This document shows, one piece after another, positions 10,882-60,880 of a stretch of DNA of 64,000 nucleotides. The first letter of the stretch is position 1. Each line of letters opens with the position of its first letter. This DNA comes from Chloroflexota bacterium (lineage in GTDB: Bacteria > Chloroflexota > Anaerolineae > Anaerolineales > E44-bin32). The DNA lies in the NCBI GenBank assembly GCA_022561215.1, contig JADFRQ010000008.1, positions 1-64,000 of the forward strand. The letters are read 5' to 3'. The translations under genes and the position numbers were made by a program. The notes beneath the pieces are model-generated. The model ran no database searches and had not been told where the DNA came from. It worked only from the letters and a program-made list of their open reading frames with translations.

Positions 10882-11123
10882 GGATAAATTTTACTCGACG
10901 ATGATGCCGCTCTGTCCTTGGCGTGGCGATGCATATGCGCGCATTGTACTTTCAACATCGAAATCGGACTCATTTTCATTCCCCTCGCGAGGAAAGCAGC
11001 ATAGGTTACAATTTTCTTCAGGCTTGAAGGTGGGTGGCATCTTCCCTGGAAGTGTTATCAAGTTTGAAGAAAGCGGAATCCGAATGAATCCGCAAATCGT
11101 TTCGCATTGAAAGGACAATTCCC

Positions 11124-12329: not shown

Positions 12330-12382
12330 CCTCGTATTGTTTTGCTGTTGCCAGGGAACATCTTTCCGATTGAGAAATCCTT

Positions 12383-43209: not shown

Positions 43210-43328
43210 CTCCCTCAAATCCTCCGAGTGCAGGTAACCCCTCGGTTTGGAATAGCTCTTGTCTGTGTGTGGGGGGGAAAACAGCTTCTTACCTCGCCCG
43301 GGGGTGTTGAGATTCACGGTAATTTCAA

Positions 43329-43406
43329 CCCCTTCGCTTGCAGCATCATGTCCGCCGCCATTTCAAATCCGATGTTTGGTAGGGGTGTTCAATTGAACAC
43401 CCCTAC
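43329..43406. repeat. Duplicated SLH tail plus 28-bp palindrome
   Basis: 43329-43378 copies the end of the next gene (CCCCTTCGCTTGCAGCATCAT against CCCCTTCGCCTGGACCATCAT at 43431, exactly 102 bases away). It carries the same TTTCAAATCCGATGTTTGGT spacer as the array at 40.9 kb. 43379-43406 is a perfect 28-base palindrome with arm GTAGGGGTG and centre TTCAATTGAA. Confidence 0.92.
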
Positions 43407-43415
43407 GGCGCAGCT

Positions 43416-45269
43416 TCAATTAATCGGCAACCCCTTCGCCTGGACCATCATGTGTGCAGCCATCGCGCGATCGAGTGCCTCGTCGGGGCAGAACTGGAGC
43501 TGTGCAGCAGTCTGACAAGCAGGGATGAGACCGGCGTTGTAAGCTGCTTCAATCCACTTCGCTCCCCAATAGTATTTGTCGACGTCGGCAAATATCCCGC
43601 TCGCGGCGGGAGGCACGTAATTTACCCCATTGAGCATCCGCAGGAAAAACACAGTCCCCTCTGTGCGCGTGTGTTCTTGCATCGGACAATAAACCAATGG
43701 GTCTATTCCGCATCCAGCCGAATATGCCTCGTTCCATAATGCAGTCGACCATTTGCTGAACCATTCCGCGAGCGGGACATCGCTAAAGATTGGAGAGATT
43801 GGATCGGGAGGCGTATACCCGGCGCTGTGAACGCCGCGTATCACAAAAACAGCGCTTTCCGCACGTGTCATTGCGCTATCTGGACAGTACATCAAGGGAG
43901 TGGAACTGCAGCCCGCCACGTATCCGTTCTGGTAAAGGACCTCGATCTCGTCGTGCGCCCAATGGTCAAAAGGTACGTCGCTAAACGTGGGGGATGGGCT
44001 TGGCGACCGACCTTCCACTTCGGCTGCATAATCATGCAGCCACTCCTCGAGGTTAGTGTAGCCGTCGCCATCGTCATCGCCACTGGGATTGTCGGGGATG
44101 GTCAGTGAGCGCTGGATCTCTTGTATGTTAGGCCAACCGCCTACATCATTCTGACTATCAACATAGCTACCTTGGCGATCTTTTACGGTTTGTACAACGC
44201 GGTTGTCGACTGGGTCACGATCTCCAGGTCGAGAACCGACATTGCCCAGGACGTACACTTCGACTTGACTGCTGGGGAGTGTGGTGAGTTCTTGGGGCCA
44301 AACCGGTGGGCTGCCGGCGGCCGTTACACTGCTTCCTTGGACCAGCGTCCATTGATTTGATGGAACGTTGCCATCCCACATGTTGTCATCGAGGAATATC
44401 TCTGAATCCGCTGGCACACTACTGCGGAAATTGATCGGTCTACTTGTGGTTGCAATACCGGAAATGAAGACATTTCCTACGATGCTTCCTTCAATTCTTG
44501 GAGGTCCGTGATCGATCCCCAGATTTTTCCAGTTGTAAATGACATTGTTTATATTAGCGTAGGAACCGCCGCTATATTTGGGATTACGTTGCTGGTTTTG
44601 CGAAAATAAATTACGTATCAGAGAAATCTTGGAGAAACCGGGTGTTCCAGATCCAAATAAAACTCCTGCATAGTTATTTTGTTTTAGGGGTTCACTAATA
44701 ATCGTATTGCTGATGGTAATGTCTCGAATTTCCCTTCCCCTTCCACTTGGAATCCATGCCCCAATGTTTTCATCCGTAGCCCAACTGATGGAAACATGAT
44801 CAATGACAAGGTTATAGATATCTCCATTTCCAGCACTTAGGGCAAGCGCATCTTTCCCCGACGATCGATCACCCCGGCGAATTGAAATGTGCCGAATGAG
44901 CACATCGTGTGTCAGAATAGTGAGCGTGCCGTCTTTGATTAATATAGGCCCTGGCGCAGTATGTCCGGCGAGGGTAAGGAAAGGGTTTCGTATATTTAAA
45001 TCACTTCCTCTCATATCAATCGTCCCGGAGATTTCAAAAATGCACACACGTGGGCCAGAAGCTTCCACGCAAGCTCTCAATGAACCCTGGCCGGAAGAGT
45101 TTAAATTTGAGACTTTGTACACGGCGCCGCCTCTACCGGCTGGCGTATGTGATCCGAAGCCTTCCGCCCCTGGAAAAACAGGGAGATCTGGGACAGGCGC
45201 GGCAGAAGCGGCAAACCAAGCTGAGAGGATTGTGAAGATTAGTAGAGTACCTGCGAATCGCTTAAACAC
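43416..45269 (-). CDS. Secreted PL1-like pectate lyase with C-terminal SLH repeats
   Basis: 617 residues from GTG 45269, with signal peptide (LLIFTILSAWFAASAAP). The N-terminal domain parallels the lyase at 41284: FPGAEGFGSHTPAGRGGAVY, SLRACVEASGPRVCIF, DHVSISWATDENIGAW and RNPKYSGGSYANINNVIYNW. A calcium-type loop (DDDGDGYTNLEEW) leads into three SLH repeats with Cys pairs from about residue 430. The two PL1 genes are diverged enough to suggest different pectin substrates. Ribosome-site support for GTG is weak. The gene lies 206 bases upstream of the sister lyase, with the tail-palindrome duplicate between them. Confidence 0.88.
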   Translation of the reverse strand: MFKRFAGTLLIFTILSAWFAASAAPVPDLPVFPGAEGFGSHTPAGRGGAVYKVSNLNSSGQGSLRACVEASGPRVCIFEISGTIDMRGSDLNIRNPFLTLAGHTAPGPILIKDGTLTILTHDVLIRHISIRRGDRSSGKDALALSAGNGDIYNLVIDHVSISWATDENIGAWIPSGRGREIRDITISNTIISEPLKQNNYAGVLFGSGTPGFSKISLIRNLFSQNQQRNPKYSGGSYANINNVIYNWKNLGIDHGPPRIEGSIVGNVFISGIATTSRPINFRSSVPADSEIFLDDNMWDGNVPSNQWTLVQGSSVTAAGSPPVWPQELTTLPSSQVEVYVLGNVGSRPGDRDPVDNRVVQTVKDRQGSYVDSQNDVGGWPNIQEIQRSLTIPDNPSGDDDGDGYTNLEEWLHDYAAEVEGRSPSPSPTFSDVPFDHWAHDEIEVLYQNGYVAGCSSTPLMYCPDSAMTRAESAVFVIRGVHSAGYTPPDPISPIFSDVPLAEWFSKWSTALWNEAYSAGCGIDPLVYCPMQEHTRTEGTVFFLRMLNGVNYVPPAASGIFADVDKYYWGAKWIEAAYNAGLIPACQTAAQLQFCPDEALDRAMAAHMMVQAKGLPIN

Positions 45270-45375
45270 TTCTTGTACTCGATCCTTTTTCGGCTAACAT
45301 TCATTAACGTAAAGGTGGTTGGCAAACCTCCGGTTAACTTGAACCGCCACTACATCCTGGCCATCGGATGCGGAG

Positions 45376-45437
45376 GGGCAATTGCTAGCCGAAGGCTAGT
45401 TTGAATTGCCCGCTCCTGCTATAACCTCCCGGAGGTT
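45376..45437. repeat. Two palindromes at the 3' end of the GH28-like gene
   Basis: 45376-45411 is an imperfect hairpin with outer arms GGGCAATT/AATTGCCC and inner stem CTAGCC-GAA-GGCTAG. 45423-45437 is AACCTCC-C-GGAGGTT, and its last base is part of the stop codon on the minus strand. A related ACCTCC..GGAGGT hairpin occurs at about 14276. These differ in sequence from the TTCAATTGAA type but hold the same position relative to the gene. Confidence 0.8.
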
Positions 45438-47362
45438 TATTGAATTTCTATTCCCTTTGCCTGCACCATCATAGTTGCGGCCATTGCGCGATCGAGTGCG
45501 TCGTCGGGGCAGAACTGGAGCTGTGCACCAGTCTGACAAGCGGGAATGAGACCGGCGTTGTAAGCCGCTTCAATCCATTTTGCTCCCCAATAGTTTTTGT
45601 CGACGTCGGCAAATATCCCACTTGCGGCGGGTGGTACGTAATTGACCCCATGCATCATCCGCAGATAAAAAACAGTGCCTTCGGTGCGCGTATGGCCCTG
45701 GTCCGGACAATACATAAGTGGATTGCTACTGCAGCCTGAAGTGTAACCATCATCCCATAGCGCTTCTGTCCATTTGGCAAACCACTCACTGAGCGGCACA
45801 TCACCGAAGCTAACGCTAGTCGGTTGGGGTGGCGTGTAGCCCGCGCCATGGATGCCGCGCTCGATATAGACGGCGCTTTCCGCGCGCGTCATCGTTTCCT
45901 CAGGACAATACATCAGGGGAGAGGAACTGCAGCCCGCAATATAGCCCTCTTGGTAGAGGAGCTCGATTTCTTCATACGCCCAATGGTCAAAGGGCACGTC
46001 GGCGAATGTCGGTGTTGGTCCAGGTGTAGGAATTGGTGGCCCTCCAACACCATTGCATTTTGGTGCAGCGCCATCGAAAGTGAGATTTGTGACACTCGAA
46101 TCAATCCGCAGGTCCTTTGTTGGATCTCCCGACAGGTGCGAACTGAAAGCGGAAATCGAGAGGCCGCATACATCTCGAAACCACGCCAGCGGCGCCGATC
46201 CGGAGGAGGCGTAATAGCGGATATTCCTGAAGGTCACGCGCTCCATATTGTTGATGGAAGCTTGGTGATAATTTCCGGTGTCGACACGACCGCCGCCGTA
46301 GAGATCGAAATCTTCGAAAACGATGTCATGAATGTAGCCGCCTAGAGTTTCATTAAACCCATCGCCGTCACGATCTACGGAAGCCTGGCAGTCATAAACA
46401 TTCTTACCGGCACCGGTGCCACCGCCACAAACCAGCATACGCTCTACTGAATCTTCGAAAGTGATGCCGCGAAAGGTAATGTTGCTGACTTCCGCGCCGT
46501 CATAAATTGAAAAACGAATACCGAAGGGACTGTTGTGGAGCATAATATTTTCGTAGGTAATGTTCTTGATATCGTATTCGGACCCCGTGCCGAATTTCAG
46601 AGCTGCGGAGTCACTTGAGACACGGCAATTCTCGATAAAAATATCGTCGTTGATCTCACCCGACCCTGAGGAAGAGGCGATTGCGATCCCGTCGTCATGG
46701 CTATCGATATCACAATTACGAACCACAACATGTTGTGAACTCTGCAAATCCATGCCGTCGTTCCCCCAGGACTGGCCAGAGCTTCGACCACCACGGATAG
46801 TGACATCCTCGAATGTGACGTGGTCGCTGGCCGCAGCCACGAGATGAAATCCATTTGCAGATTTAGGTGCAGAGCGTGTGTCGATGAGAATATTTGATAC
46901 AAGGATATTGGAAGAGTCCCAAAACTCGACGATTGCCGAGAATGTATTGCTCGAGGACGGACGACTGATGGTTCCTGGCCCGAGGATGGCAACGTTATTC
47001 GTGCCACTTCGGGTGCCGATAAAAACTGTATGGCATCCTGGACATTTCAGTGAGCGGAAATCACTCTCATTATCAGCAGACTGGATTGTTGCGCCATTCA
47101 GATCCAGCGTGACATTGCTTTTAATTTCAATCGTTCCTGTCGTGTATATTTTCCCGGCGGATAAGATCACCGTCCCGCCACCAAGTGCATTGCATTGGTC
47201 GATCGAGCTTTGGATCTGATTTGTATTATCGCTTCCTGAAGGAGAACCCACCTGGCAGGTATCCGCGGCATAGGCGAGATTGGGGGTTAAGGTTAAGACG
47301 GCGAAAACAATACCCACACCAAGCGAGGTAAGCAGGATTATTGTTCTCGGCCGTAAAGTCAT
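45437..47362 (-). CDS. Secreted GH28-like polygalacturonase with C-terminal SLH repeats
   Basis: 641 residues from ATG 47362; a TTG at 47377 is also possible. A signal peptide (TIILLTSLGVGIVFAVLTL...AYA) is followed by a right-handed beta-helix matching GH28: NTNQIQSSIDQCNALGGGTV, NVTLDLNGATI, GNDGMDLQSSQHVVVRNCDI and DSHDDGIAI with the paired aspartates. The usual G-H-G motif is not obvious, so the exact specificity (polygalacturonase or a related glycosidase) is open. Three SLH repeats with Cys pairs occupy about 455-641 and end in GIEIQ rather than GLPIN. It would hydrolyse the homogalacturonan that the neighbouring lyases also attack. Confidence 0.85.
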   Translation of the reverse strand: MTLRPRTIILLTSLGVGIVFAVLTLTPNLAYAADTCQVGSPSGSDNTNQIQSSIDQCNALGGGTVILSAGKIYTTGTIEIKSNVTLDLNGATIQSADNESDFRSLKCPGCHTVFIGTRSGTNNVAILGPGTISRPSSSNTFSAIVEFWDSSNILVSNILIDTRSAPKSANGFHLVAAASDHVTFEDVTIRGGRSSGQSWGNDGMDLQSSQHVVVRNCDIDSHDDGIAIASSSGSGEINDDIFIENCRVSSDSAALKFGTGSEYDIKNITYENIMLHNSPFGIRFSIYDGAEVSNITFRGITFEDSVERMLVCGGGTGAGKNVYDCQASVDRDGDGFNETLGGYIHDIVFEDFDLYGGGRVDTGNYHQASINNMERVTFRNIRYYASSGSAPLAWFRDVCGLSISAFSSHLSGDPTKDLRIDSSVTNLTFDGAAPKCNGVGGPPIPTPGPTPTFADVPFDHWAYEEIELLYQEGYIAGCSSSPLMYCPEETMTRAESAVYIERGIHGAGYTPPQPTSVSFGDVPLSEWFAKWTEALWDDGYTSGCSSNPLMYCPDQGHTRTEGTVFYLRMMHGVNYVPPAASGIFADVDKNYWGAKWIEAAYNAGLIPACQTGAQLQFCPDDALDRAMAATMMVQAKGIEIQ

Positions 47363-47417
47363 CTTTAAGTTTTTCAATAAGTTTTATGTATTCCTTTGCT
47401 TGCTATCGAACAAGGTC

Positions 47418-47437
47418 GGGCGGTTCGCGAACCGCCC
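47418..47437. repeat. Palindrome, GTAGGGGC family (TTCGCGAA core)
   Basis: GGGCGGTTCG and its complement form a perfect 20-base palindrome followed by CTAC. It starts 13 bases after the stop codon of the minus-strand gene at 47451. The same core variant occurs at 56186. Confidence 0.9.
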
Positions 47438-47450
47438 CTACGGCATTCCT

Positions 47451-49982
47451 CTAATTGATCGGCAAACCCTTGGCCTGCACCATCATCGAAGCCGCCATCG
47501 CACGAGTGAGTGGATCGTCAGGGCAGAATTTTAACTCGGGCGCGGAGGCACAAGCGGGGATCAACCCCGCTTTGTAGGCCTCCTCGATCCATTTCGCTCC
47601 CCAGAATTCAATCGAGACATCCGCAAAAATTCCGCGGGGATCGGGCGGCGTATAGCTCGCCCCATGGAGCATGCGCAGGAAGAACACCGTCCCTTCGGTG
47701 CGCGTGTGTTCCTGGAGCGGGCAATAGACGAGCGGATTGGTCCCACAACCTGCCGTATAGCCGGCGTTCCAGAGCGCAGCTGACCATTTGCTGAACCACT
47801 CCGAGAGAGGCACATCCGCAAAGATTAACTGACCTGGATCAGGAGGCGTATAGGCAGCGCCGTTTATGCCGCGCACGACGAATACGGCACTCTCTGCGCG
47901 CGTCATCGCATTTTCGGGGCAATACATCAGCGGCGCGCTACTGCACCCGGAAACATAGCCCCCTTGATAGAGGGTCTCGATCTCATCATGCGCCCAATGA
48001 TCGAAGGGCACATCGACAAAAGTCGGAGGATCCGGGGGTTTGCTGCCATCCTGGTAGACGAACTTGAACGCATCGGCGATGACGGGACCATTTGCTCCCT
48101 GGGCGGAGAGGATCACTTTTCCAGAGGTTCCCTTATTGAAAGTGAAAGTGCCGAGACTGTTCCATTGACCAAAATTGCTCGATTGATCGACTGTGCGCTT
48201 CGTTGAACCACCGCTATGCTGGATCGTGATCCCAACATTGGTAGCTTCCGCTACTGAGGAAGCGCTATCACCTAGATAGCCATGCCATTCGAAGACCTCA
48301 TAGCTGCCGCCGACGCCAATCGAAGGGGTGAATATGGCGGTTCCATCACTGTCGCTGCGTGCGTGCGTGTGCCAATAATCTACGCCCCCATAGGCGCGTC
48401 CCTGCTTGTGGCTGTAAACACTCCAATGATTACGGCCACCTTTCATCTGCAGAGAAAAACCACCGCTAAGTGCGGCCTCAAAACTGCCAGGTGAGGTGCT
48501 GAAATCGTTGTTATCGACAATGATGTCGGAGATGATGGTTTGAGGGCTGCGCAATAAAATGATGGCATCCCCCAAAGGCTTGATCTGGTTACCCTTTTGC
48601 CATGTGTAACCGTTCAAAGAGACGGAGGTGAACGCTGCCCCAGTGTTCAAGGCATTTCCGCCGTTGAGTGAGATATCCTGCCCTCCTTCAAATCTCCAGT
48701 ATGGGCCGGCATAGCCAGGTAGAGACTTAAGTTCTTGATTGGATACATTAACCGAATTGCCAGTTACATTGACGATGGAAACACCCTTATCGAAAAAGCG
48801 TACCCAAACTCCAGCTTTAAGTTTCAAAGCATCGTCCAACGGTCCGAAGCGACCCAAGTCTATGGGTTGTCCCAAATCGAGATCAAACTCGTCATACCAT
48901 TGGTGAATGTGGTGATTCTGTGTGCTTTGCGCTTCTTCAAAGGTCATATAGTTAAAGTAGGCGTCTCCAAGAAGTGTGACCCCAAGGAGATAACGCATAG
49001 ATTGCAGGTGGTTTCTTGAATCGGTCTTGTCACTCAAAGCGGTGATAAATGGATCGCTGCGATCCGGTCGCGCATCGATGATGGCCACATGAGGAAAGGG
49101 AGCAACCTCCATAAAGTATTTGTACTCATCGTTCCAAAAATAGCCGGTCTCAAAATTGTTGCCAAATCCGGTGGTCCATTCGCGGACCATGCCGTTGATA
49201 TATTCAACGCCAAGTTTCTGCCACTGGAAACCGAAATTGATGAGCGAGGTCTTGCTGGATCCGGCCTTGTCCAGCTCAGCGCGTAGATTGGCCAATAATT
49301 CGACGGTGCCTTCCTGCCACTTGGCATCGACCCAAGCCTTGCCGTGTTCATCAAAATCGTTGACCCCGTTGCGATCCATATCGATATCGGAAATGCCGTA
49401 GGGCTTTCTCCAGAGCCAATCAGTAGCCACACCGTCGTTTATATTCAGCAGACTCTGCTCAACAACTTGAACCGGCAAGGCTTCGAGGATCGACAATCCG
49501 GAAAATCGTCCACTCTTGGCATCCCGTGAGAAAATCGATTGATCGATCATGCGATTGCAGCAATTGAGATAAACGTCATCTCCATTTGAATCGTCAACAA
49601 GGAACGCGCTCGCGTCAAAATCACTCACTGGGATTGGATATCTCGAGGGACTGACGTAAGCAGTCCATCCGCGCGTTGGGATGTTTAGCGTGCTTGGGCT
49701 GATGGCTTTGATCTGTTCGCCAAGATATTCTCCGCTTCCTACCATCACCAGGTCATGTTTTGCATACCAATCCGCAGGGGCACTGCCGAAGTGGAATATG
49801 CCAATGCGTGGATAAGATGGGCTGTAATTGTCTGCTGCCGCTGATGGCTGGGTCTGTGGGATCGTTTGATGGCTGGCATTTGTATTTGCTGAAGATGATT
49901 GAACGGGCGATAGCAGAGCGAAAGTCGTCAGCACAGCGATAATACGAACCGTGAGATTGCGACGCGTTGAGTTACTAAGCAC
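47451..49982 (-). CDS. Secreted GHL15-like glycosidase with golvesin-like domain and SLH repeats
   Basis: 843 residues from GTG 49982 (GGAG nine bases before; a TTG at 50000 adds six residues). A signal peptide is followed by a predicted TIM-barrel domain (about 55-390) resembling the putative glycosidase family GHL15: YPRIGIFHFGSAPADWYAKHDLV, LNINDGVATDWLWRKP. It contains a 12-residue EF-hand-like loop (DMDRNGVNDFDE). A second domain (about 495-650) matches the golvesin C-terminal type (GGSYEVFEWHGYL, TVDQSSNFGQWNSLGTFTF, VIADAFKFVYQDG), often carbohydrate-binding. Three SLH repeats with Cys pairs end the protein. Its last 655 bp are identical to those of the gene at 53288. The polysaccharide substrate is unknown. 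Confidence 0.82.
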   Translation of the reverse strand: MLSNSTRRNLTVRIIAVLTTFALLSPVQSSSANTNASHQTIPQTQPSAAADNYSPSYPRIGIFHFGSAPADWYAKHDLVMVGSGEYLGEQIKAISPSTLNIPTRGWTAYVSPSRYPIPVSDFDASAFLVDDSNGDDVYLNCCNRMIDQSIFSRDAKSGRFSGLSILEALPVQVVEQSLLNINDGVATDWLWRKPYGISDIDMDRNGVNDFDEHGKAWVDAKWQEGTVELLANLRAELDKAGSSKTSLINFGFQWQKLGVEYINGMVREWTTGFGNNFETGYFWNDEYKYFMEVAPFPHVAIIDARPDRSDPFITALSDKTDSRNHLQSMRYLLGVTLLGDAYFNYMTFEEAQSTQNHHIHQWYDEFDLDLGQPIDLGRFGPLDDALKLKAGVWVRFFDKGVSIVNVTGNSVNVSNQELKSLPGYAGPYWRFEGGQDISLNGGNALNTGAAFTSVSLNGYTWQKGNQIKPLGDAIILLRSPQTIISDIIVDNNDFSTSPGSFEAALSGGFSLQMKGGRNHWSVYSHKQGRAYGGVDYWHTHARSDSDGTAIFTPSIGVGGSYEVFEWHGYLGDSASSVAEATNVGITIQHSGGSTKRTVDQSSNFGQWNSLGTFTFNKGTSGKVILSAQGANGPVIADAFKFVYQDGSKPPDPPTFVDVPFDHWAHDEIETLYQGGYVSGCSSAPLMYCPENAMTRAESAVFVVRGINGAAYTPPDPGQLIFADVPLSEWFSKWSAALWNAGYTAGCGTNPLVYCPLQEHTRTEGTVFFLRMLHGASYTPPDPRGIFADVSIEFWGAKWIEEAYKAGLIPACASAPELKFCPDDPLTRAMAASMMVQAKGLPIN

Positions 49983-50221
49983 TAGGTGTTTCTCCTTCAA
50001 GCATTTGAGCTGTATGGCAGCTTGAATAGTAAAAAATCATATTAACCGTCAATCGAGTCATTCGTAATATGTAAGATGGAAATTTAACGATGTTGATCTA
50101 ATCGGCGAGCAGATTGCAGTTGCTGCGTTTCACAAATTGGGTCCTAATTCGAATTTAAAATTGCCTTTATCCTGTAGCCAACCCCATAAAAAGTGTAAGG
50201 ATGAGGTAGCGAAAGAGGCAG

Positions 50222-50257
50222 GGTACTCGAGTACCTAGGGTGTAAGTACGTTGGTCC
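50222..50257 (-). promoter_or_regulatory. Candidate operator, paired direct repeat
   Basis: AGTACGTTGGTCC lies at 50245-50257, with an imperfect copy 23 bases before it (GGTACTCGAGTACC from 50222). On the gene's sense strand the unit is GGACC-N3-GTACT. It lies about 240 bases before the start of the gene at 47451. The same pair, with the same 23-base period, occurs at 55909 and 61042. Confidence 0.55.
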
Positions 50258-50290
50258 TATGGTGGAGGGGATATAATAATGATCTCGCGT

Positions 50291-50412
50291 GGGCACGGCA
50301 TTCCGTGCCCCACCGGAACGGCAGCCCATTCGCCGCACCATCATGGCTGCTGCCATTGGTCTGACCGTCCTATTTCGATTGCTTGTCGTGGGGGCGTTCA
50401 CTTAAACGCCCC
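50291..50412. repeat. Palindromes and tail copy after the beta-helix SLH gene
   Basis: 50291-50310 is a palindrome with arm GGGCACGGCA. 50311-50358 copies the end of the neighbouring gene (GCACCATCATGGCTGCTGCCAT), 103 bases from the true end. 50391-50412 is an imperfect palindrome (GGGGCGTT...AACGCCCC). The stop codon TAG of the gene at 50412 lies in the GTAGGGGC arm. Confidence 0.85.
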
Positions 50413-53183
50413 TACGGAATGCTTAACCCCTTCGCTTGTACCATCATGTAGGCCGCCATGGCGCGCGTGAGAGGATCATTAGGGCAGAACTTCAGCTCGG
50501 GCGCGGATGAACAAGCTGGGATCAGCCCGGCGTTGTAGGCTGCCTCAACCCAATCGGCGTACCACATCTCGATTGGCACATCTGAGAAAACCCCATTGGC
50601 TTCAGGCGGAACGTAATCTGCGCCGTGCAGCGTGCGCAGGAAGAAGACGCTTCCCTCCGCGCGGGTGTGGCCTTGTAGAGGACAATAAATCAGCGGATTG
50701 GTACCACAACCGGCAGTGAAGCCATCGTCCCACAACGATGTAGTCCACTTGGCGAACCACTCCCACAAAGGCACGTCGTCAAAGGGGTGGCTCGATGACT
50801 GGGCGGGAAGGTATCCAGCCCCGTGAATTCCGCGCACGACGAATACGGCACTCTCTGCGCGAGTCATGGTTGCATCGGGACAGTACATGAGCGGATCGTT
50901 GTTGCACCCTGCAACGTAGCCAGCCTGATAGAGCGTTTCGATGTATTCCAGGGCCCAGTGGCTGGAGGGTACATCAATAAAAGTAGGACTTGGACCGTTG
51001 AGTTCAACTGCGCCGATATCTGGAGCAATACCGGAGTACGTGTCATTGACACCCGCTATATGCACTCCTGCATCCACGAGGGGAGAAGATTGTGGCAGGG
51101 TGAAGTCTCCATTGGAGGGATTGGCGAATTCTGGGTGGACGCTAATTCCATGCTGCTCGAGCCCATAGGTCAATCGCATTTCCTCAACGGTGTACATTCG
51201 GTCTCCAGAAAGTATTCTGACGAGATAAGAGCCGTCGACGGAACTGTCAACCCACAGGTTGTCGTAATCCATATTCATCTCAACGGGGTGACCGTTGTTT
51301 TCAATTTGATCCTTATAAACCGTGAGCACCGCATGACCTGGATTGACGGACCAGGAGTTGTTCCGGGTATTTGCGATGAAACCGGGCGTATTTTTCCAAA
51401 CCGTTGAAAATGCTGAGATCGAGTTGACCGGCGAGGCGGGGTCGAGCTCAATAACTGAACTGTTGTGATAGAGCAATGTAGGCCCCGTCCCGCCGCTGGC
51501 GTTGACGTTGTACTTCCATGCCCCATAAGGCATTATGTATTTTCCAGTAAGATCTAAACTGCCATCAGGGAAATATCTGTTCGTCATGTAAATCGTGTTG
51601 CGGATCATCCACAACGGTCCAACCGTAGCAGGCGCTGAGGAGATCCCGACGAAGACATGGTGGAGGTAATTCCCCCAGATGACCTGGTTGTACACAGGTC
51701 CATCAAGTTCAAGCGCATCGTCCCCGATGCGATAGAGTTCGTTCCCCATAATGATGGTGCCAGCGTTGTATCTGGGATTGCCCATGGTGGCGGGCCCACC
51801 GTTGCCCCAGGGCGAGCCGGCGTTAATCCCGTTCTCCACATCATGGATTTTGTTATTACGGATCACGTGGTTTCCGCCAGAGACCAATCCGATTCCGCCG
51901 GTTGAGATCACATCATGCCCCAACCACCATTCTCGATACCAAAAACTGGGTGAGCAATAAATATCGTTCCCCTCGATCAAAGAGAAGGAGGAGAGATCGT
52001 CATCGGATTTGCTCAGGGAGGTATGGGCCTTAATTCCATCCCAGTTCCAACGGAGCGTATTGTTTCTCACAACAACGTAATCGGCGCTATCCAGCTGGAT
52101 AGCGGTGCGCGTGTGTTGAATTGTCAGACCATCAACCACGACATGATCTCCAGCGATGATCAAGCCGTAGCGAGCCAATCCGGCGTAGATGCTTCTCCCC
52201 GTCGGGTTGATGGCTGGGCCAGACCACTGGTCGAATACATTCGGAAATTTCACGTAGAGACGATTGGAATTGCCGTCGTACCACCAGCCGCCATGCAGAC
52301 CGGTACGCGTATCGCCCTGATAGAGTCCAATGGCCAAATTATTGAGAGAATCGAAGGGCATGAGGAAGTGTTCTTCGAAAAAGACTATCCTTGGAGAAGT
52401 AGAAAGAGGCGCCCAGTAGACCCCAGGATATGTCGAGCGGTCTGCATCTTGCCAGGTCACGTTCCCGGGAGAGGCAAGCTCGGCGTCTGCGCCATCTAAA
52501 ATTGGGTTTTCGCCTGGGGCAGATTTAATGATGATGGGATATTCAGCTGAACCGGATTTATCAATGCGAATGGATCTTGAGGAAGAAATGTCGTAATTGC
52601 CGCTATGAAGCAGGATGGTCTCGCCAGGACTGACCAATTCGATCGCCTTTTGGATGGTTTGAAGAGGCGCATTCGAAGATCCATCGTTGCTGTCCCGACC
52701 AAGCGGTGAGACATGGAGCACCCGACCTGAATTCTCTGTTCTGGGTTCTGCTCGAGTCGAAGCGGTGAAAGTGAAAGGGTTTTCCCCAAGAATGCCATCT
52801 GGGTCGGTGAATCTCACTTGAATTTCATAGGATGTTCCCGGCCTGAGATTGAAGAGTCGGCCAGCCCATTCAAATTGGGACCCGGAGACGTTGGGATTAA
52901 AAGTAGTCGCATGCCAGATGCGTTGGAGAGGGTGGCCTTCTTTCCATGGAACGGATCCGATCTGACGATATTGAATCTGTGCTTCGCTGTCCTCGTTGCT
53001 ATCGCCAGTGAAAGGGATGCTGAAGCCGAGCGTTGAGAACGCAGGAAGAAGGATAGGGTCCCCTTGCGGGATCGTCAATGATGATGAGGTTTGGGCCTGG
53101 GCAAGCGTGCCTTGGAAGATAAAAGCAGTCCCAAGGATGAGAATAAGGATGTGTGTCTTTATCTGTTTAGAGTTTCGAACCAT
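50412..53183 (-). CDS. Secreted right-handed beta-helix protein with SLH repeats
   Basis: 923 residues from ATG 53183, with a strong GGAGG ribosome site; a longer frame to 53291 is unlikely. A signal peptide (THILILILGTAFIFQGTLAQA) is followed by a fibronectin-III-like domain (about 35-160, ending TYEIQVRFTDPDG). A large beta-helix domain (about 165-690) starts DGSSNAPLQTIQKAIELVSPGETI and contains PIIIKSAPGENPILDG, VVVDGLTIQHTR and NNTLRWNWDGIKAH. This pattern occurs in DUF1565 and PL6/PL9-like proteins. A polysaccharide lyase or hydrolase function is probable, but I cannot name the family. Three SLH repeats with Cys pairs end the protein. It is 104 bases downstream of the gene at 53288. Confidence 0.82.
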   Translation of the reverse strand: MVRNSKQIKTHILILILGTAFIFQGTLAQAQTSSSLTIPQGDPILLPAFSTLGFSIPFTGDSNEDSEAQIQYRQIGSVPWKEGHPLQRIWHATTFNPNVSGSQFEWAGRLFNLRPGTSYEIQVRFTDPDGILGENPFTFTASTRAEPRTENSGRVLHVSPLGRDSNDGSSNAPLQTIQKAIELVSPGETILLHSGNYDISSSRSIRIDKSGSAEYPIIIKSAPGENPILDGADAELASPGNVTWQDADRSTYPGVYWAPLSTSPRIVFFEEHFLMPFDSLNNLAIGLYQGDTRTGLHGGWWYDGNSNRLYVKFPNVFDQWSGPAINPTGRSIYAGLARYGLIIAGDHVVVDGLTIQHTRTAIQLDSADYVVVRNNTLRWNWDGIKAHTSLSKSDDDLSSFSLIEGNDIYCSPSFWYREWWLGHDVISTGGIGLVSGGNHVIRNNKIHDVENGINAGSPWGNGGPATMGNPRYNAGTIIMGNELYRIGDDALELDGPVYNQVIWGNYLHHVFVGISSAPATVGPLWMIRNTIYMTNRYFPDGSLDLTGKYIMPYGAWKYNVNASGGTGPTLLYHNSSVIELDPASPVNSISAFSTVWKNTPGFIANTRNNSWSVNPGHAVLTVYKDQIENNGHPVEMNMDYDNLWVDSSVDGSYLVRILSGDRMYTVEEMRLTYGLEQHGISVHPEFANPSNGDFTLPQSSPLVDAGVHIAGVNDTYSGIAPDIGAVELNGPSPTFIDVPSSHWALEYIETLYQAGYVAGCNNDPLMYCPDATMTRAESAVFVVRGIHGAGYLPAQSSSHPFDDVPLWEWFAKWTTSLWDDGFTAGCGTNPLIYCPLQGHTRAEGSVFFLRTLHGADYVPPEANGVFSDVPIEMWYADWVEAAYNAGLIPACSSAPELKFCPNDPLTRAMAAYMMVQAKGLSIP

Positions 53184-53254
53184 TTCAACCTCCGGCGATT
53201 GGCGTTGGTTCGTTTGGGTGGCACTCAACCGTATTTCTACAAAGCACAGTTTTG

Positions 53255-53280
53255 GTAGGGCGTTCAATTGAACCGAACGG
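53255..53280. repeat. Degenerate palindrome, TTCAATTGAA core
   Basis: GTAGGGCGTTCAATTGAACCG retains the left arm and centre of the family, but the right arm is altered. It lies seven bases after the stop of the minus-strand gene at 53288. Confidence 0.75.
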
Positions 53281-53287
53281 AATAAAT

Positions 53288-55840
53288 TCAATTGATCGGC
53301 AAACCCTTGGCCTGCACCATCATCGAAGCCGCCATCGCACGAGTGAGTGGATCGTCAGGGCAGAATTTTAACTCGGGCGCGGAGGCACAAGCGGGGATCA
53401 ACCCCGCTTTGTAGGCCTCCTCGATCCATTTCGCTCCCCAGAATTCAATCGAGACATCCGCAAAAATTCCGCGGGGATCGGGCGGCGTATAGCTCGCCCC
53501 ATGGAGCATGCGCAGGAAGAACACCGTCCCTTCGGTGCGCGTGTGTTCCTGGAGCGGGCAATAGACGAGCGGATTGGTCCCACAACCTGCCGTATAGCCG
53601 GCGTTCCAGAGCGCAGCTGACCATTTGCTGAACCACTCCGAGAGAGGCACATCCGCAAAGATTAACTGACCTGGATCAGGAGGCGTATAGGCAGCGCCGT
53701 TTATGCCGCGCACGACGAATACGGCACTCTCTGCGCGCGTCATCGCATTTTCGGGGCAATACATCAGCGGCGCGCTACTGCACCCGGAAACATAGCCCCC
53801 TTGATAGAGGGTCTCGATCTCATCATGCGCCCAATGATCGAAGGGCACATCGACAAAAGTCGGAGGATCCGGGGGTTTGCTGCCATCCTGGTAGACGAAC
53901 TTGAACGCATCGGCGATGACGGGACCATTTGCTCCCTGGGCGGAAAGGATCACTTTTCCAGAGGTTCCCTTGTTGAAAGTGAAGGTGCCGAGACTGTTCC
54001 ATTGGCCATCATTTCGGGATTGATCGACCGATCGATTCGCAGTTCCACCTGCATGGGAGATGGTTATGCTGACGTTGCTGGCTTCATTCACATCACCGGT
54101 GTCACTGCCAAGATAGCCATGCCATTCGAAGACCTCATAGCTGCCGCCGACGCCAATCGAAGGGGTGAATATGGCGGTTCCATCACTGTCGCTGCGTGCA
54201 TGCGTCTGCCAATAATCCACGCCACCGTAGGCACGGCCGTTCTTCTGGCTGAATACGCTCCAGTGGTTGCGGCCGCCATTCATCTGCAAGGAGAATCCAC
54301 CGCTCAATTTCGCTTGGTAGCTGCCAGGCGAGGTGCTGAAATCGTTATTATCGACAATGATGTCGGAGATGATGGATTGAGGGCTGCGCAACAAGATGAT
54401 GGCATCGCCCATCACTCTGGTGAGGCCATTTTTTTGCCATGAATAACCGTCCAGAGTAACAGCCTTAAATGCCTCTCCGTTATTCTGCGCCCTGGATCCA
54501 TTGAGGGATAAGTCCTGGCCTCCAGCAAAACGCCAATAGGGCCCTGCGTACCCGGGAAGAGATTTCAACTCCTGATCGGTGATCGATATCGGACTGCTGG
54601 TGACATTGACAATCGAGACACCTTTATCGAAGAAGCGCACCCAGATCCCAGACTTGAGCTCCTGGGCATCATCCAATGGGCCGGATCGACCAAAATCGGT
54701 GGGTCGGCCCAGATCCAAGTCGAACTCGTCGTACCATTGGTGAATGTGGTGATTCTGCGTGCTTGTCGCTTCCTCAAAAGTCATAAAATCGAAATAAGCA
54801 TCACCAAGCAACGTGACGCCGAGCAGGTAGCGCATGGCTTGCAGGTGATTTCGTGAATCGGTCTTGTTTACGCTGCCGCTGAAGAATGGGTCGCTGCCAT
54901 CGGCACGACCATCGATGATGGCGACGTGAGGATAAGGAGCGTTCTCCATGAAGTATTTGTATTCATTGTTCCAGAAGGACCCATTCTTGAAGTTACCACC
55001 GAAACCAGTTGTCCATTCGCGGAACATGCCATTAATGTATTCGTTCGCAATTTGTTGAAATTGAAAGCCATAGTTGACGAAGGCTACGTTTCCGGGTCCG
55101 GCCTTATCGAGCTCTTTGCGCAGGTTGGAGAGAAGCTCAGTTACCCCTTCTTGCCATTTTGCGTTAACCCATTTTTTGCCATGTTCGTCGTAGTCGTTGA
55201 CCCCGTTCCTATCGAGATCAATATTGGAAACGCCATAGGGCTTCACCCAAAGCCAATCTGTAGCAACACCGTCGTTAATGGACAAGCGGTTTTCTTTTGC
55301 TGCTGCAATGGGTAGGGCCTGGCGGATTGTAAGACCACTGTACTGCCCGAAGCCGCTTGGCCTGGAGAAGCTAGACATATCAATCAGGCGATTACAACAA
55401 TTGATGTAGACGTCTGCGCCGGAGGCATCCACTGCCAGGAAAGCTTCTAAATCAAAATCAGGCTTTGCGATGGGATAGCGGGTCGGAGAGATATAAGCCG
55501 CCCACTCCCTCGTCGGCAGGACAATCGTGTTGGGATTAAGCGCTTTAACTGTCTCGCCCATGTCAAAGCCGCTGCTGACGACGATCAAATCGTATTTTGC
55601 GTACCAATCATCCGGGGCTCTGCCAAAATGTAGCATTCCAATCCTCGGGTAAGAAGGGCTGTAGAGATTTTGGGGGTTGGAAACCCCAGCAAGGGCCGCC
55701 GCGCCCTGCGATGAAAAAACGACCGGGGTGAAGGAAAGAGCAGATACGACCAGAATAAAGAGAACAGTTTTGCCGAGTTTCTTTAATTGTGTGAACGATG
55801 GTCTTCTCCACCAGCGGGTGGCTTCGTGGGGATGATGCAT
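53288..55840 (-). CDS. Secreted GHL15-like glycosidase with golvesin-like domain and SLH repeats
   Basis: 850 residues, ATG 55840 with GGAG before it. It is a full-length paralogue of the gene at 47451 with the same order: signal peptide, TIM-barrel-like domain (YPRIGMLHFGRAPDDWYAKYDLI, SINDGVATDWLWVKP, EF-hand-like loop DLDRNGVNDYDE), golvesin-like domain (GGSYEVFEWHGYL, DQSRNDGQWNSLGTFTF) and three Cys-bearing SLH repeats. The SLH region and adjoining linker are identical in DNA to the paralogue over 655 bases (53290-53944). The N-terminal two thirds have diverged. A candidate operator lies 65-105 bases upstream. The substrate is unknown; the locus points to pectin-type polymers. Confidence 0.82.
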   Translation of the reverse strand: MHHPHEATRWWRRPSFTQLKKLGKTVLFILVVSALSFTPVVFSSQGAAALAGVSNPQNLYSPSYPRIGMLHFGRAPDDWYAKYDLIVVSSGFDMGETVKALNPNTIVLPTREWAAYISPTRYPIAKPDFDLEAFLAVDASGADVYINCCNRLIDMSSFSRPSGFGQYSGLTIRQALPIAAAKENRLSINDGVATDWLWVKPYGVSNIDLDRNGVNDYDEHGKKWVNAKWQEGVTELLSNLRKELDKAGPGNVAFVNYGFQFQQIANEYINGMFREWTTGFGGNFKNGSFWNNEYKYFMENAPYPHVAIIDGRADGSDPFFSGSVNKTDSRNHLQAMRYLLGVTLLGDAYFDFMTFEEATSTQNHHIHQWYDEFDLDLGRPTDFGRSGPLDDAQELKSGIWVRFFDKGVSIVNVTSSPISITDQELKSLPGYAGPYWRFAGGQDLSLNGSRAQNNGEAFKAVTLDGYSWQKNGLTRVMGDAIILLRSPQSIISDIIVDNNDFSTSPGSYQAKLSGGFSLQMNGGRNHWSVFSQKNGRAYGGVDYWQTHARSDSDGTAIFTPSIGVGGSYEVFEWHGYLGSDTGDVNEASNVSITISHAGGTANRSVDQSRNDGQWNSLGTFTFNKGTSGKVILSAQGANGPVIADAFKFVYQDGSKPPDPPTFVDVPFDHWAHDEIETLYQGGYVSGCSSAPLMYCPENAMTRAESAVFVVRGINGAAYTPPDPGQLIFADVPLSEWFSKWSAALWNAGYTAGCGTNPLVYCPLQEHTRTEGTVFFLRMLHGASYTPPDPRGIFADVSIEFWGAKWIEEAYKAGLIPACASAPELKFCPDDPLTRAMAASMMVQAKGLPIN

Positions 55841-55908
55841 GCTTAACTTTCTCCTGCTGTCGGGGTGATTTTGTTTTAATTTTAGAGGGTTGGCAGGATG
55901 TCCTCCAG

Positions 55909-55944
55909 AGTACTGAGGTCACTTAGAGGGAAGTACCCTAGTCC
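55909..55944 (-). promoter_or_regulatory. Candidate operator, paired direct repeat
   Basis: AGTACTGAGGTCA (55909-55921) and AGTACCCTAGTCC (55932-55944) are two copies with a 23-base period, 69-104 bases before the start of the gene at 53288. They match the pairs at 50222 and 61042. Confidence 0.6.
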
Positions 55945-56094
55945 TGAACATCAATGGGACCTAATCAGAGCATGGGGCAATCAGTGAACATATTCGGCCG
56001 AATGAATTCGCCGGGTTGAGCAGCAATGATCGTTTGTGGGATGGGGAATGCGTACCGTAGCTCACGCCTGATCGTCCTATCACGAATCCTTTTT

Positions 56095-56213
56095 GCCGGC
56101 ATGCCGTGCCCCTACACCAGTAGATTTCGTTTCGTGTGCACCATCAAATTAATCATTGATAGATTTTCCATTTCGATTTCTCGTCGTAAGGGCGGTTTGC
56201 GAACCGCCCTTAC
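56095..56213. repeat. Palindromes and tail relic overlapping a stop codon
   Basis: A GCCGGCATGCCGTGCCCCTAC arm pair lies near 56095-56114. A relic of the SLH gene end (GTGCACCATCAAATTAATC) is near 56135-56155, 98 bases from the true end. A perfect 28-base palindrome with arm GTAAGGGCGG occupies 56186-56213. Its right edge contains the TAA stop of the gene at 56210. Confidence 0.85.
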
Positions 56214-58657
56214 GGCATACTCAACCCTTTTGCCTGCACCATCATGTAGGCTGCCATCGCTCGATCCAGCGCGTCATCAGGGCAGAATTTCAATGCCGGG
56301 GATTCCTCGCAAGCAGGGATCAACCCGGCGCTGTAGGCCTCCTCGATCCATTTCGCGCCCCAGAATTCTGTTGGCACATCGGCAAAGATCCCGCTGGGAT
56401 CTGGCGGCGTATAGTTCGCCCCATTCAGCATGCGCAGGAAGAACACGGTTCCTTCCGTGCGCGTGTGTTCTTGAAATGGACAATAGACCAGCGGATTGGT
56501 GCCGCATCCGGATGTGTAGCCATCGTCCCAAAGCCCTTGGGTCCATTTTGCAAACCACTCAAAGAGAGGCACGTCGGCAAATGTTTGTGCTGCAGGATCG
56601 CCAGGGATGAAAGATGTGCCCTGGATGCCGCGCTCTATAAAGACCGCACTTTCTGCACGCGTCATGCTGGCATCGGGGCAGTACATGAGCGGGCTGCTGC
56701 TGCAGCCGGAAACGAAGCCCTCCTGATAGATAGTCTCGATGTAATCATGCGCCCAGTGGCTGAAGGGTACATCGGCGAATGTCGGAGGGTCCGGTGGTGT
56801 GCTGCCATCTTGATAAACGAAGTTGAATGCGTCAGCGGTAGTGGTGCATCCGCCAGGTGAAATCATCTTCACAAAGCTACTTTCACCATCTTGCAGGTTG
56901 TATACCCCAAGAGAGTTCCACTGCCCTCCATTTTTGGATTGGTCGATTGCCACCGTGGACTGGCGGCTGCCGTTAATATAGATTTCTGTGGGCACACTGT
57001 TGCAGGCATTGGTCACATCGGGGTGCCACTCAAACACCTCGTACTCCCCGCTTATCCCGATCGTGGGTCTGAACTCGATCGTCGCGCCGGCGTTTTCTGT
57101 TGTGGAATAAGAATAAAGGTCTTTCCAGGCGGCTTGACGATGGGACCACGCATTTCCTTGATCCGTGCTAACGGTCCAGGAGCTGGCAGGATCAAGTGTT
57201 GCGCCTTTGCTCGCCGGGCTGGTGTAGTTGTTTAGGTTATCGACCACGATATCGGAAATGATCGTCATCGGAGAGCGAACCAAAATGAGACCGTCCCCCA
57301 CGGATTGATCACGAAAGGCATGCCCATCCAGCGTGATGCTGGAAAATGTTTGCCCGTTATTATGCACAGGATCCTGCCCACCCAAGAAGCGCCAATAAGG
57401 ACCGGAGTAGCCCTCCAGGCTTTTGAGGTCGGCATCGTTAACCGAGGTAGGTGATGAGTTGGGGTTCATGAGCGCCACGCCGTTGTCGAAAAAACGCACC
57501 ATAATGCCGTTGGGAAGCTGGTGTGTGTCATCACCCGGGCCCGGCTGACGGATTTCAGTGGGGTATCCCAGGGGTACCTCGAATTCGTCATAGTAGGCGT
57601 AGAACTTATGCTCACCGGCTTCAACGGGCTGAAATTCAAAGTAGCCATCACCCATCAGCGTATAGGTGAGCATCATGCGCATTAATTCATAATAATTCTT
57701 GCTGTGACCTTCGCGTGCATAGGTATAGGGATCACTGCCACTGGGGCGGATGTCCGAGACCCAGGTGGTCGGTTTTCGACCGTTCTTGATCCATTTTAAA
57801 TATTGCTTCCAATCGTAGTTGAAGCTCCGAAACCCGGATTGTTTTTCATATTCGAGACCATTGGTGTTTTCCAATGAACCAGCGATCTTGGCGTCGTCGT
57901 GCAGCACACCGCTGTTGACCCAGATAGGGACATTGGGATCGCCGAATTGTTGATTAACTTCTGTGCGCCAGTTGGCGAGAAAATCGCTTACCCCGGCAAC
58001 GTAGGTGCTGTCGACCCAATTGGTGCCGTGTTCCAGATAATCATTGCACACCTGGCCCTTGTTTGGATCTTTGGTTCCACCATTGGCGACGCAGTTGCGA
58101 TCCATATCAATATTTCCGGCGCGCGGTTTGTGCCAGACCCAGTCTGTTCCTGTGCCATCGTATCCACCGGCAACTGCGAATTCGGTGGTACAACGAGGAC
58201 CGTATTCGTTGTAACGTTCACCGAAGCTGTTTCGCGGCGTTTGCGGCAGGCTGCTCATATCGCCGAGGCGCGGCGCCCAACCCGAACCAGCTTGAGCAAC
58301 CGTGCCGTCATCTCTGCGTGCAAACAAGTCATCCGTCCAGCTGTCGCACTGCATTATGTTGTTTTCTTTATCCGGCGGCGGACCGATGATGCCTTCGGTG
58401 TACAGAATTTTGGTCGTGGGGTCGATGAGTTTTACAGCCTGGATGAGACTGCTCGGGGTCTTGCTGATGATCAAATCAAACAAAGCATAGTACTCAGCAG
58501 GAGACTTTCCAAAATGTTGGTTGGCGAGCCGCGGATAATCATGGTTCCAACTGGGATCGAGGGAAACAGTCGCCGGCGCGGCGCTCGAGGGGGTAATGCT
58601 GGCTATGCCGATAATGGATACGCTGATGATCAATAGGCCGATGTGTTTTAGCTTCAT
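56210..58657 (-). CDS. Secreted GHL15-like glycosidase, divergent member, with golvesin-like domain and SLH repeats
   Basis: 815 residues with signal peptide (IGLLIISVSIIGIASITPSSA). It has the same domain order as the genes at 47451 and 53288 but is more distant: YPRLANQHFGKSPAEYYALFDLI, DGTGTDWVWHKP, then DMDRNC, where the EF-hand-like loop of its paralogues is interrupted by ~13 residues including two cysteines before CNDYLEHG. The golvesin-like domain has GEYEVFEWHPDV and DQSKNGGQWNSLGVYNL, with extra cysteines. Three SLH repeats with Cys pairs end in GLSMP. The stop codon lies in a palindrome. Only 93 bases separate it from the upstream PL11-like gene, so the two are probably co-transcribed. 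Confidence 0.82.
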   Translation of the reverse strand: MKLKHIGLLIISVSIIGIASITPSSAAPATVSLDPSWNHDYPRLANQHFGKSPAEYYALFDLIISKTPSSLIQAVKLIDPTTKILYTEGIIGPPPDKENNIMQCDSWTDDLFARRDDGTVAQAGSGWAPRLGDMSSLPQTPRNSFGERYNEYGPRCTTEFAVAGGYDGTGTDWVWHKPRAGNIDMDRNCVANGGTKDPNKGQVCNDYLEHGTNWVDSTYVAGVSDFLANWRTEVNQQFGDPNVPIWVNSGVLHDDAKIAGSLENTNGLEYEKQSGFRSFNYDWKQYLKWIKNGRKPTTWVSDIRPSGSDPYTYAREGHSKNYYELMRMMLTYTLMGDGYFEFQPVEAGEHKFYAYYDEFEVPLGYPTEIRQPGPGDDTHQLPNGIMVRFFDNGVALMNPNSSPTSVNDADLKSLEGYSGPYWRFLGGQDPVHNNGQTFSSITLDGHAFRDQSVGDGLILVRSPMTIISDIVVDNLNNYTSPASKGATLDPASSWTVSTDQGNAWSHRQAAWKDLYSYSTTENAGATIEFRPTIGISGEYEVFEWHPDVTNACNSVPTEIYINGSRQSTVAIDQSKNGGQWNSLGVYNLQDGESSFVKMISPGGCTTTADAFNFVYQDGSTPPDPPTFADVPFSHWAHDYIETIYQEGFVSGCSSSPLMYCPDASMTRAESAVFIERGIQGTSFIPGDPAAQTFADVPLFEWFAKWTQGLWDDGYTSGCGTNPLVYCPFQEHTRTEGTVFFLRMLNGANYTPPDPSGIFADVPTEFWGAKWIEEAYSAGLIPACEESPALKFCPDDALDRAMAAYMMVQAKGLSMP

Positions 58658-58730
58658 AATGTAGTGATTCCAACTTGCAAGGTGTTATTGGAGGGAAAGA
58701 TTCCTCTTCACCTGTCTATTCTCCGGGTAA

Positions 58731-58750
58731 GGGAACGGCATGCCGTGGCC
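58731..58750. repeat. Palindrome after the PL11-like gene (GGCATGCC core)
   Basis: GGGAACGGCA and TGCCGTGGCC form an imperfect 20-base palindrome with a perfect ACGGCATGCCGT centre, directly adjoining the stop codon at 58751. The same centre appears near 40859 and 56099. Confidence 0.8.
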
Positions 58751-60880
58751 TCACGGAATTTGTAATCCCTTAGCCTGCACCATCATGGTTGCCGCCATGG
58801 CGCGATCGAGAGGATCGTCGGGGCAAAACTTTAATTCTGGTGTTGTCTCACATGCAGGGATTAAGCTTGCATCATAAGCCGCCTCAATCCATTTAGCCCC
58901 CCAAAAACCGGGAGCTACATCCATAAAAATCCCTTTGGGATCAGGAGGAATATAGGCTGCACCATTGAGCATGCGCAGAAAGAAAACGGTCCCTTCGGTA
59001 CGAGTGTGTTGCTGCAGGGGGCAGTAAACAAGTGGATCCATCCCACAGCCAGAGGTGTAGCCATCTTCCAACAAGGCGCCTGCCCATTTGGCATACCACT
59101 CGGTCAGTGGCACATCATCGAAAACCTTGTTCGAGGGTGAAGGTGGAGTGAAACCCGAGCCGTTTAATCCGCGCTCTACGAAGACCGCGCTTTCGGCACG
59201 CGTCATGTTGTCATCCGGGCAGTACATAAGTGGATCGGCGCTGCATCCGGAAATATATCCCTGATCGTAGAGAATCTTGATCACGTCGTAGGCCCAATGA
59301 TTTGGGGCAACATCGACAAAAAAGGTAGGTAGAGAAGGAGCATTGCCTCCTCCCGGAAGCAAAGGTTTGGGAAGGCCAGTGCCGTAGCTGGCCATGTTCA
59401 TCAAATAGGTATGATCCTCTCGGGGAGAAGGCCTGTTAGGGTAAGCCGTCGGCTGGTCATTGCTGTACACATAAAGCTTGTAGCCGGAGGCGACGATGAT
59501 CTCTTCACGCCAGTCGCCAAGGATGTCGACCTGGATCGATTCACCGCTCCCACGCGCTTTCGCAAAGCCGCTTTCGATATTGACGCCTTTGAATTTGTTG
59601 AGCAGCGTACCACCCCGATAACGGTAGTACTCTGCAGTGTCATCATCATCCCAAAAGAGGGGGTAGCCCACATGATTGCCGGTTTGGCTGCGTAAGATTG
59701 TTCCATCCGCTGCATAGAGGAACCATTTTTCACTGTATCCATCGACCCACACATCTTTTGCAGCAGGTGGGGTGCCATAGACACCATTGAGCGTATTTTG
59801 CCATTCGTTCCCTGTGTAAAAATAGCCCGTAGCCCAGATTTCAAGGCCAGGTGAAGGATCCACATCGTAGACCCAGCCGCGATGCATCCTGCCCCAGCCT
59901 TCATCCGTTTTGCTGCTGTTGTGGTGCCAAATGATTTCTTTCTGGTCGAGGTCGATGAGGTAGGGGCCTTCCCAATAATTGGGCTGGACGACGTAGGGGT
60001 CGTTCGTTGACCCCGAGCGTTGAAGATACCATTCGAGCCCCGGGTTGTCGGGATCGATGTCACCCACCAGTGATCGCTCGGCCTCGCCCTCATTTGAATA
60101 ATCCCCAAATGTTCCATCCAAATATAGGGTGCCATCATCGTCGATGATTAATGAACCGTTGACAATTTCATCTCTTCCGTCGCCATCGACATCTGCGGTG
60201 TAAATATTTGTCCAACTGAGAAAGCCGTAGAATTTCGGGTTATCGAAGGTCCAATATATGTTTAGATCTTTGTCGTATGCAGTGGTCACCATATCACGCC
60301 CCTGCGCGATGACCAGGTAGGGATTGACCCCATCCAGGTATGCAATGGTGGCATGGTTAATTTTCCTGGGCCTTGCGATAGACCGGCTAACAAGGATGTC
60401 CCCGGTCTCCCCATCGAGCATTACCAGCTTGGTCGTTCCATTTTCTTTCATCTGGGTCATGACTTCGTCTTTGCCGTCGCCATCCATGTCCCAAACGCTC
60501 AGCGTGACCGTCCAAGTGGGATCACCATTGGTATCTCGATACGTCATGTTGTGAGCAAATTCCCAGAGGATTTTCCCGTCATTGCGCACCGCGTAGGTGA
60601 TCGTCTTGAAGTCCTTGTCGATATCATCATCGATCCAAACCCGCGCTAAAAAGTCATAATCGCCATCTCCGTCCAAATCGCCCACCCCTACGGTGTAGCT
60701 CAGACGATCCTCGGGGATCCCTAATTTGTCCGTAGGAAGATCGAAGACCCAACTGTTTTTTGCCTGTGCACTGTCCGCAATTAAGCTGGCCAAAGCAATT
60801 ACAACGACGACGGCAAAAGAGAACCCCCCCCATCGTCGGATTATGTGAATTGGGTGGAACTCAACATTTTTTAGGATCAT
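58751..60880 (-). CDS. Secreted PL11-like rhamnogalacturonan lyase with SLH repeats
   Basis: 709 residues with a signal peptide (FSFAVVVVIALASLIADSAQA). The main domain (about 40-500) is a propeller with several calcium-type loops (VGDLDGDGDYDF, DMDGDGKDEVM, DVDGDGRDEIV). It carries the signature VDILGDWREEIIVASGYKLYVYS of rhamnogalacturonan lyase family PL11 (YesW/YesX), split here by family pattern. PL11 enzymes cut the backbone of rhamnogalacturonan I. The usual N-terminal FnIII-like part of the family is missing or short. Three SLH repeats with Cys pairs occupy about 520-709. It is the first gene of the eight-gene minus-strand run and has the candidate operator about 160-200 bases upstream. 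Confidence 0.85.
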   Translation of the reverse strand: MILKNVEFHPIHIIRRWGGFSFAVVVVIALASLIADSAQAKNSWVFDLPTDKLGIPEDRLSYTVGVGDLDGDGDYDFLARVWIDDDIDKDFKTITYAVRNDGKILWEFAHNMTYRDTNGDPTWTVTLSVWDMDGDGKDEVMTQMKENGTTKLVMLDGETGDILVSRSIARPRKINHATIAYLDGVNPYLVIAQGRDMVTTAYDKDLNIYWTFDNPKFYGFLSWTNIYTADVDGDGRDEIVNGSLIIDDDGTLYLDGTFGDYSNEGEAERSLVGDIDPDNPGLEWYLQRSGSTNDPYVVQPNYWEGPYLIDLDQKEIIWHHNSSKTDEGWGRMHRGWVYDVDPSPGLEIWATGYFYTGNEWQNTLNGVYGTPPAAKDVWVDGYSEKWFLYAADGTILRSQTGNHVGYPLFWDDDDTAEYYRYRGGTLLNKFKGVNIESGFAKARGSGESIQVDILGDWREEIIVASGYKLYVYSNDQPTAYPNRPSPREDHTYLMNMASYGTGLPKPLLPGGGNAPSLPTFFVDVAPNHWAYDVIKILYDQGYISGCSADPLMYCPDDNMTRAESAVFVERGLNGSGFTPPSPSNKVFDDVPLTEWYAKWAGALLEDGYTSGCGMDPLVYCPLQQHTRTEGTVFFLRMLNGAAYIPPDPKGIFMDVAPGFWGAKWIEAAYDASLIPACETTPELKFCPDDPLDRAMAATMMVQAKGLQIP

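Follow-up and report, generated by a model that had tools for sequence, protein, structure and literature searches.

The window, by which we mean the whole stretch of 64,000 nucleotides that was analysed, carries an array of eight same-strand genes with SLH tails: two pectate-lyase-like genes, a GH28 gene, three genes of GHL15/Golvesin type, a beta-helix gene and an RGL11 gene. Judged from these members, the array looks like a pectin-degrading set. Genes 4 and 6 of the array are paralogues of the same architecture, and their proteins are 69% identical in amino acids outside the tails. Between them lies gene 5, whose SLH tail shares 66% nucleotide identity with those of its two neighbours and whose start codon is uncertain, being probably near 53182.

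41284-60880, minus strand: array of eight SLH-tailed genes
47451-50000, minus strand: gene 4, 849 aa, GHL15-like glycosidase (PF14885) with Golvesin_C (PF25275) and SLH tail
47454-48035, minus strand: gene 4, block of three SLH repeats, modelled at pLDDT 93.6 and matching the B. anthracis Sap SLH structure 3pyw
50412-53291, minus strand: gene 5, beta-helix protein ending in a separate, diverged SLH tail
53288-55840, minus strand: gene 6, 850 aa, paralogue of gene 4 with the same architecture

A search of 60 related genomes did not recover the gene 4/gene 6 pair, and a scan of genome contigs gave only weak Bacillus SLH matches. The sequences resemble those of Chloroflexota.

Fold and putative anchoring of the tails

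The tail of gene 4 has the three-repeat SLH fold, as its model and the structure match agree. Foldseek aligns the modelled tail with 3pyw and 6bt4 (Sap) and with 6cwc (SpaA) at E 9e-10 and TM 0.76-0.82, and a profile built from 19 tails matches the SLH domain of B. anthracis Sap at E 1e-10. The fold is thus the same as in Sap and SpaA, but the tails described here differ from those domains in that every repeat holds two conserved cysteines, one on either side of a short insert (as in 47454-48035), which possibly represents a disulfide-stapled form of the SLH repeat, and in that the Pfam SLH model finds no match in genes 4 and 6 at E 0.01. The predicted structure of the GHL15 head was discarded, the model being too poor (pLDDT 42).

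The tails are putative anchors to a pyruvylated wall polymer, and the presence of a polysaccharide pyruvyl transferase gene, the single one in the genome and adjoining an SLH gene, is in keeping with this role. The transferase domain is N-terminal in a 1302-aa protein encoded on another contig next to an SLH-bearing glycosidase-like gene (C34, locus L050, 2677-6585 and 6912-8738 for the two genes).

An identical tract in genes 4 and 6, and similar tails elsewhere

The 3' ends of genes 4 and 6, both of which are read from the minus strand (a correction to earlier wording), share a run of 655 identical bases out of 655, with a mismatch one base beyond either end, so that the run is maximal. A shorter exact run lies further upstream in the two genes.

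47453-48107, minus strand: tract copy 1, 3' end of gene 4, comprising the end of Golvesin_C, the linker, three SLH repeats and the stop codon's first base
53290-53944, minus strand: tract copy 2, 3' end of gene 6
48274-48362, minus strand: gene 4, shorter exact run (89 bp) within Golvesin_C, 166 bp from the main tract
54111-54199, minus strand: gene 6, counterpart of this 89-bp run

The perfect identity claimed by the first-pass annotation, third codon positions included, therefore stands. Fourfold sites differ between the two genes at 0 of 114 positions within the tract and at 101 of 184 beyond it; at the rate seen outside the tract, a count of zero has a probability of about 10^-39. When the differences over the whole gene pair were shuffled 10,000 times, the longest run reached 61 nt, against the 655 observed. 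The contrast between 0/114 and 101/184 rules out purifying selection or chance as the source of the tract, and near-perfect identity at synonymous sites inside otherwise diverged homologues is the pattern that marks gene conversion.

Read in the sense of the genes, the last shared base is the T that opens the stop codon, TAG in gene 4 and TGA in gene 6, in agreement with the earlier claim that downstream identity ends at the stop codon. Beyond it follow short spacers and palindromes that are unlike each other in the two genes. Since this edge is simply the end of homology, no special boundary needs to be invoked. Golvesin_C matches gene 4 at residues 526-648, and the 5' edge, at 48107, falls about 50 bp within this match, so that what was exchanged does not coincide with the SLH module; the SLH block and the linker before it are both covered, as had been annotated, but so are some 17 codons of Golvesin_C. 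Upstream of the tract the genes do diverge, though not simply by scattered differences followed by strong ones, as had been described: about 65 bp are near-identical, then identity drops to about 70% with indels, then comes the 89-bp exact run and then mostly 60-78%. With the main tract removed, shuffling reaches at most 38 against the 89-bp run. Gene conversion typically leaves such a mosaic of tracts, with edges that fall within homology or where it stops and with flanks that are not duplicated, and both features are seen here.

Across the genome, 27 SLH tails were collected and compared in 351 pairs, with a median nucleotide identity of 63%. Three further pairs have excess identity in the tail, two of them across unrelated heads. 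The tails of C68:140 and C101:203 have a 111-bp exact run in common, while their heads, one GHL15-like and the other beta-helix, have no detectable homology; those of C101:11830 (a cohesin protein) and C101:13151 (beta-helix) are 88% identical below unrelated heads; and those of C100:12645 and C101:13151 are 92% identical, with heads at 38% in amino acids. Since the tails of the C101 pairs are similar along their whole length, the statistical case for these pairs comes mostly from how far the tails exceed the heads in identity. Some short-run matches in the style of GENECONV that involved the truncated tail C101:13151 were dropped as a product of gaps scored as differences. A like footprint occurs in one genome of another genus in the same family, in two neighbouring same-strand genes, at 95.6% identity: same-amino-acid codons are identical at 194 of 212 positions in the tail and at 79 of 168 immediately upstream (Fisher p 2e-22), and the sequences past the stop codon differ. 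Together with the three pairs above, this indicates that homogenisation of the tails recurs, and at different ages.

Gene conversion and its rivals

We consider it highly probable that the tract arose by recent intragenomic gene conversion between the tandem paralogues gene 4 and gene 6, a reading that the first-pass annotation had proposed and that is well supported by the synonymous pattern, the mosaic, the edge at the end of homology and the further cases in this genome and in the other genus. The two paralogues, 5.8 kb apart on the same strand, would pair through their 3' ends, presumably by homologous recombination of the RecA type; the SLH tails are the most similar part of many array members and so form a natural pairing site. 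One 3' end would then overwrite the other, probably non-reciprocally, with copying extending downstream until homology gave out at the stop codon, and in the upstream direction into Golvesin_C, including the extra patch 166 bp off. Same-strand recombination with non-reciprocal copying explains all the features through known machinery. The ends of the genes, LPIN-TGA with CAATTG palindromes in genes 1, 2 and 6 and LPIN-TAG with a GCGAACC palindrome in gene 4, are too weak an indication for donor direction. The annotation's other suggestion, a cassette exchange of the SLH module, found no support: the 5' breakpoint is inside Golvesin_C, no junction bounded by the module was found, and no inverted repeats of at least 40 bp occur in the SLH gene array.

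Among the rivals, an assembly artefact, in which short-read assembly or gap filling merged differing tails or placed one tail in both genes, survives best, although we judge it unlikely. The draft genome comprises 126 contigs, and among those sampled a start or end in a repeat is common: C68, C101, C65, C75 and C103 begin in repeats, and SLH tails form the ends of C101, C100 and C116. In a draft so fragmented, perfect identity in the interior of a repeat may be a collapsed consensus. Within the SLH contigs examined, no exact repeat longer than 111 bp occurs besides the 655-bp tract (the sampling of repeats covered the SLH contigs and 40 contig starts). If the assembly is from short reads, the 655-bp repeat must have been resolved by means of paired reads, and the sequence in its interior may be a merged consensus. 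Against this, the contig contains no N, every reading frame is intact and the flanks differ on either side, and a collapsed repeat normally breaks a contig instead of being present twice. Tails of 88-97% identity stayed separate elsewhere in the assembly, which makes the near-identity of the tails safe. Plain collapse is unlikely, though it may account for the last few percent of identity. The 89-bp tract, which fits within single reads, and the older tail cases are independent of the consensus in the 655-bp interior, and cases of intermediate identity, including that from the other genus, are impossible by collapse. The excess of contig ends in SLH tails is suggestive of further identical tails, and no more than suggestive. 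The transposase PF01609, used as a probe of assembly quality, had no match in the genome.

We give still less credence to the idea that the tail region was recently duplicated in tandem or went through unequal crossing-over, which the same-strand tandem arrangement of the genes would suit and for which the 102-bp tandem units at the 3' end of the array show that small duplications happen locally; duplication predicts an identical flank on at least one side, but both flanks are diverged, the upstream one homologous and the downstream one non-homologous, and the differing 3' flanks past the exact stop-codon edge argue against duplication of a whole unit. Strong constraint on the tail, through the protein or an overlapping DNA or RNA function and with no recombination, can practically be dismissed, since SLH tails are indeed conserved at the protein level but the median identity of same-amino-acid codons over the 351 tail pairs is 41%, against 199 of 199 in the focal pair, so that protein selection is insufficient as an explanation.

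Whether intended or not, the result of gene conversion between genes 4 and 6 would be a uniform cell-wall anchor below diverging catalytic heads, which may be of selective value. More tentatively, and with somewhat less than even confidence, we speculate that ectopic conversion, acting even across unrelated heads, keeps the SLH anchor tails of the family as a whole in continuing concerted evolution, and that the diversifying heads above these uniform anchors are open to in-frame deletion or amplification by way of the tails. The 655-bp direct repeat itself predicts a deletion or amplification of 5,837 bp that would remove or multiply genes 4 and 5 with the frame intact. Read in this way, the locus illustrates clearly how a modular array of surface enzymes may evolve, the anchors being homogenised by recombination while the catalytic parts diverge freely. 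In practical terms, a tree built from SLH tails, or from the complete proteins, blends two separate histories, and such tails are places where a short-read draft can break.

Known systems, repeats and a cohesin-dockerin set

The nearest conceptual parallel is offered by the sapA homologues of Campylobacter fetus, which Dworkin in 1995 (cited in PMC3887049) is said to have described as segmentally conserved S-layer genes that recombine through a shared segment. In that system it is the 5' end that is conserved, and the segment is present in all copies and serves programmed antigenic switching. Both are families of surface proteins in which a near-identical anchoring segment is joined to a differing remainder. 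Here, in contrast, the segment is at the 3' end and is identical in one pair only, the anchor families differ, and switching is a feature of sapA; where an anchor of the sapA type is near-identical in all copies, the 27 tails have the median pairwise identity of 63% given above.

Gene conversion between paralogues is already well known. In Mycobacterium tuberculosis it has been seen directly, with a discontinuous tract, in pe_pgrs27/pe_pgrs28 and other PE/PPE paralogues (PMC12046097). As in that pair, an exact tract is common to two paralogues within otherwise differing genes, and the tracts are discontinuous, lying 286 bp apart in M. tuberculosis (PMC12046097) and 166 bp apart here. The M. 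tuberculosis events, however, were seen between strains with PacBio reads and their direction is known, whereas we describe one genome; the paralogues here are also much more diverged beyond the tract, and the tract spans the cell-wall anchor. The literature searched, most of it outside subscription journals, contained no account of gene conversion affecting SLH anchors.

Small repeats accompany the SLH genes in this genome. Tandem units of 102 bp lie downstream of SLH genes at 40935-41328 and 43271-43460, each consisting of the final ~48 bp of an SLH gene, including the stop codon, and a spacer with the palindrome GTGTTCAATTGAACAC; they are repeated remnants of gene ends. Dispersed palindromes of the GTAGGGGCGGTTCGCGAACCGCC type (47419-47441, 56186-56213 and on other contigs) are frequent 3' of SLH genes, and in several genes the palindrome provides the stop codon. 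A palindrome of this type also adjoins a dispersed 143-bp element, the copies of which (L041 1-143, L042 1-131, and others on C15 and C98) are 96-98% identical and which sits at two contig starts; it looks like the remnant of a small mobile element.

The ends of L042 (C101:14405-14776) and L043 (C100:14699-14876) both lie inside an SLH tail in matching orientations, and the two contigs probably join, with ~100 bp missing, into one longer array. On C101, a dockerin-bearing beta-helix protein (10045-11730) is directly followed by a cohesin-SLH protein (11839-12909), and C100 encodes a second dockerin protein (11354-12460). The total found in the genome, one cohesin and two dockerins, amounts to a minimal surface cohesin-dockerin set.
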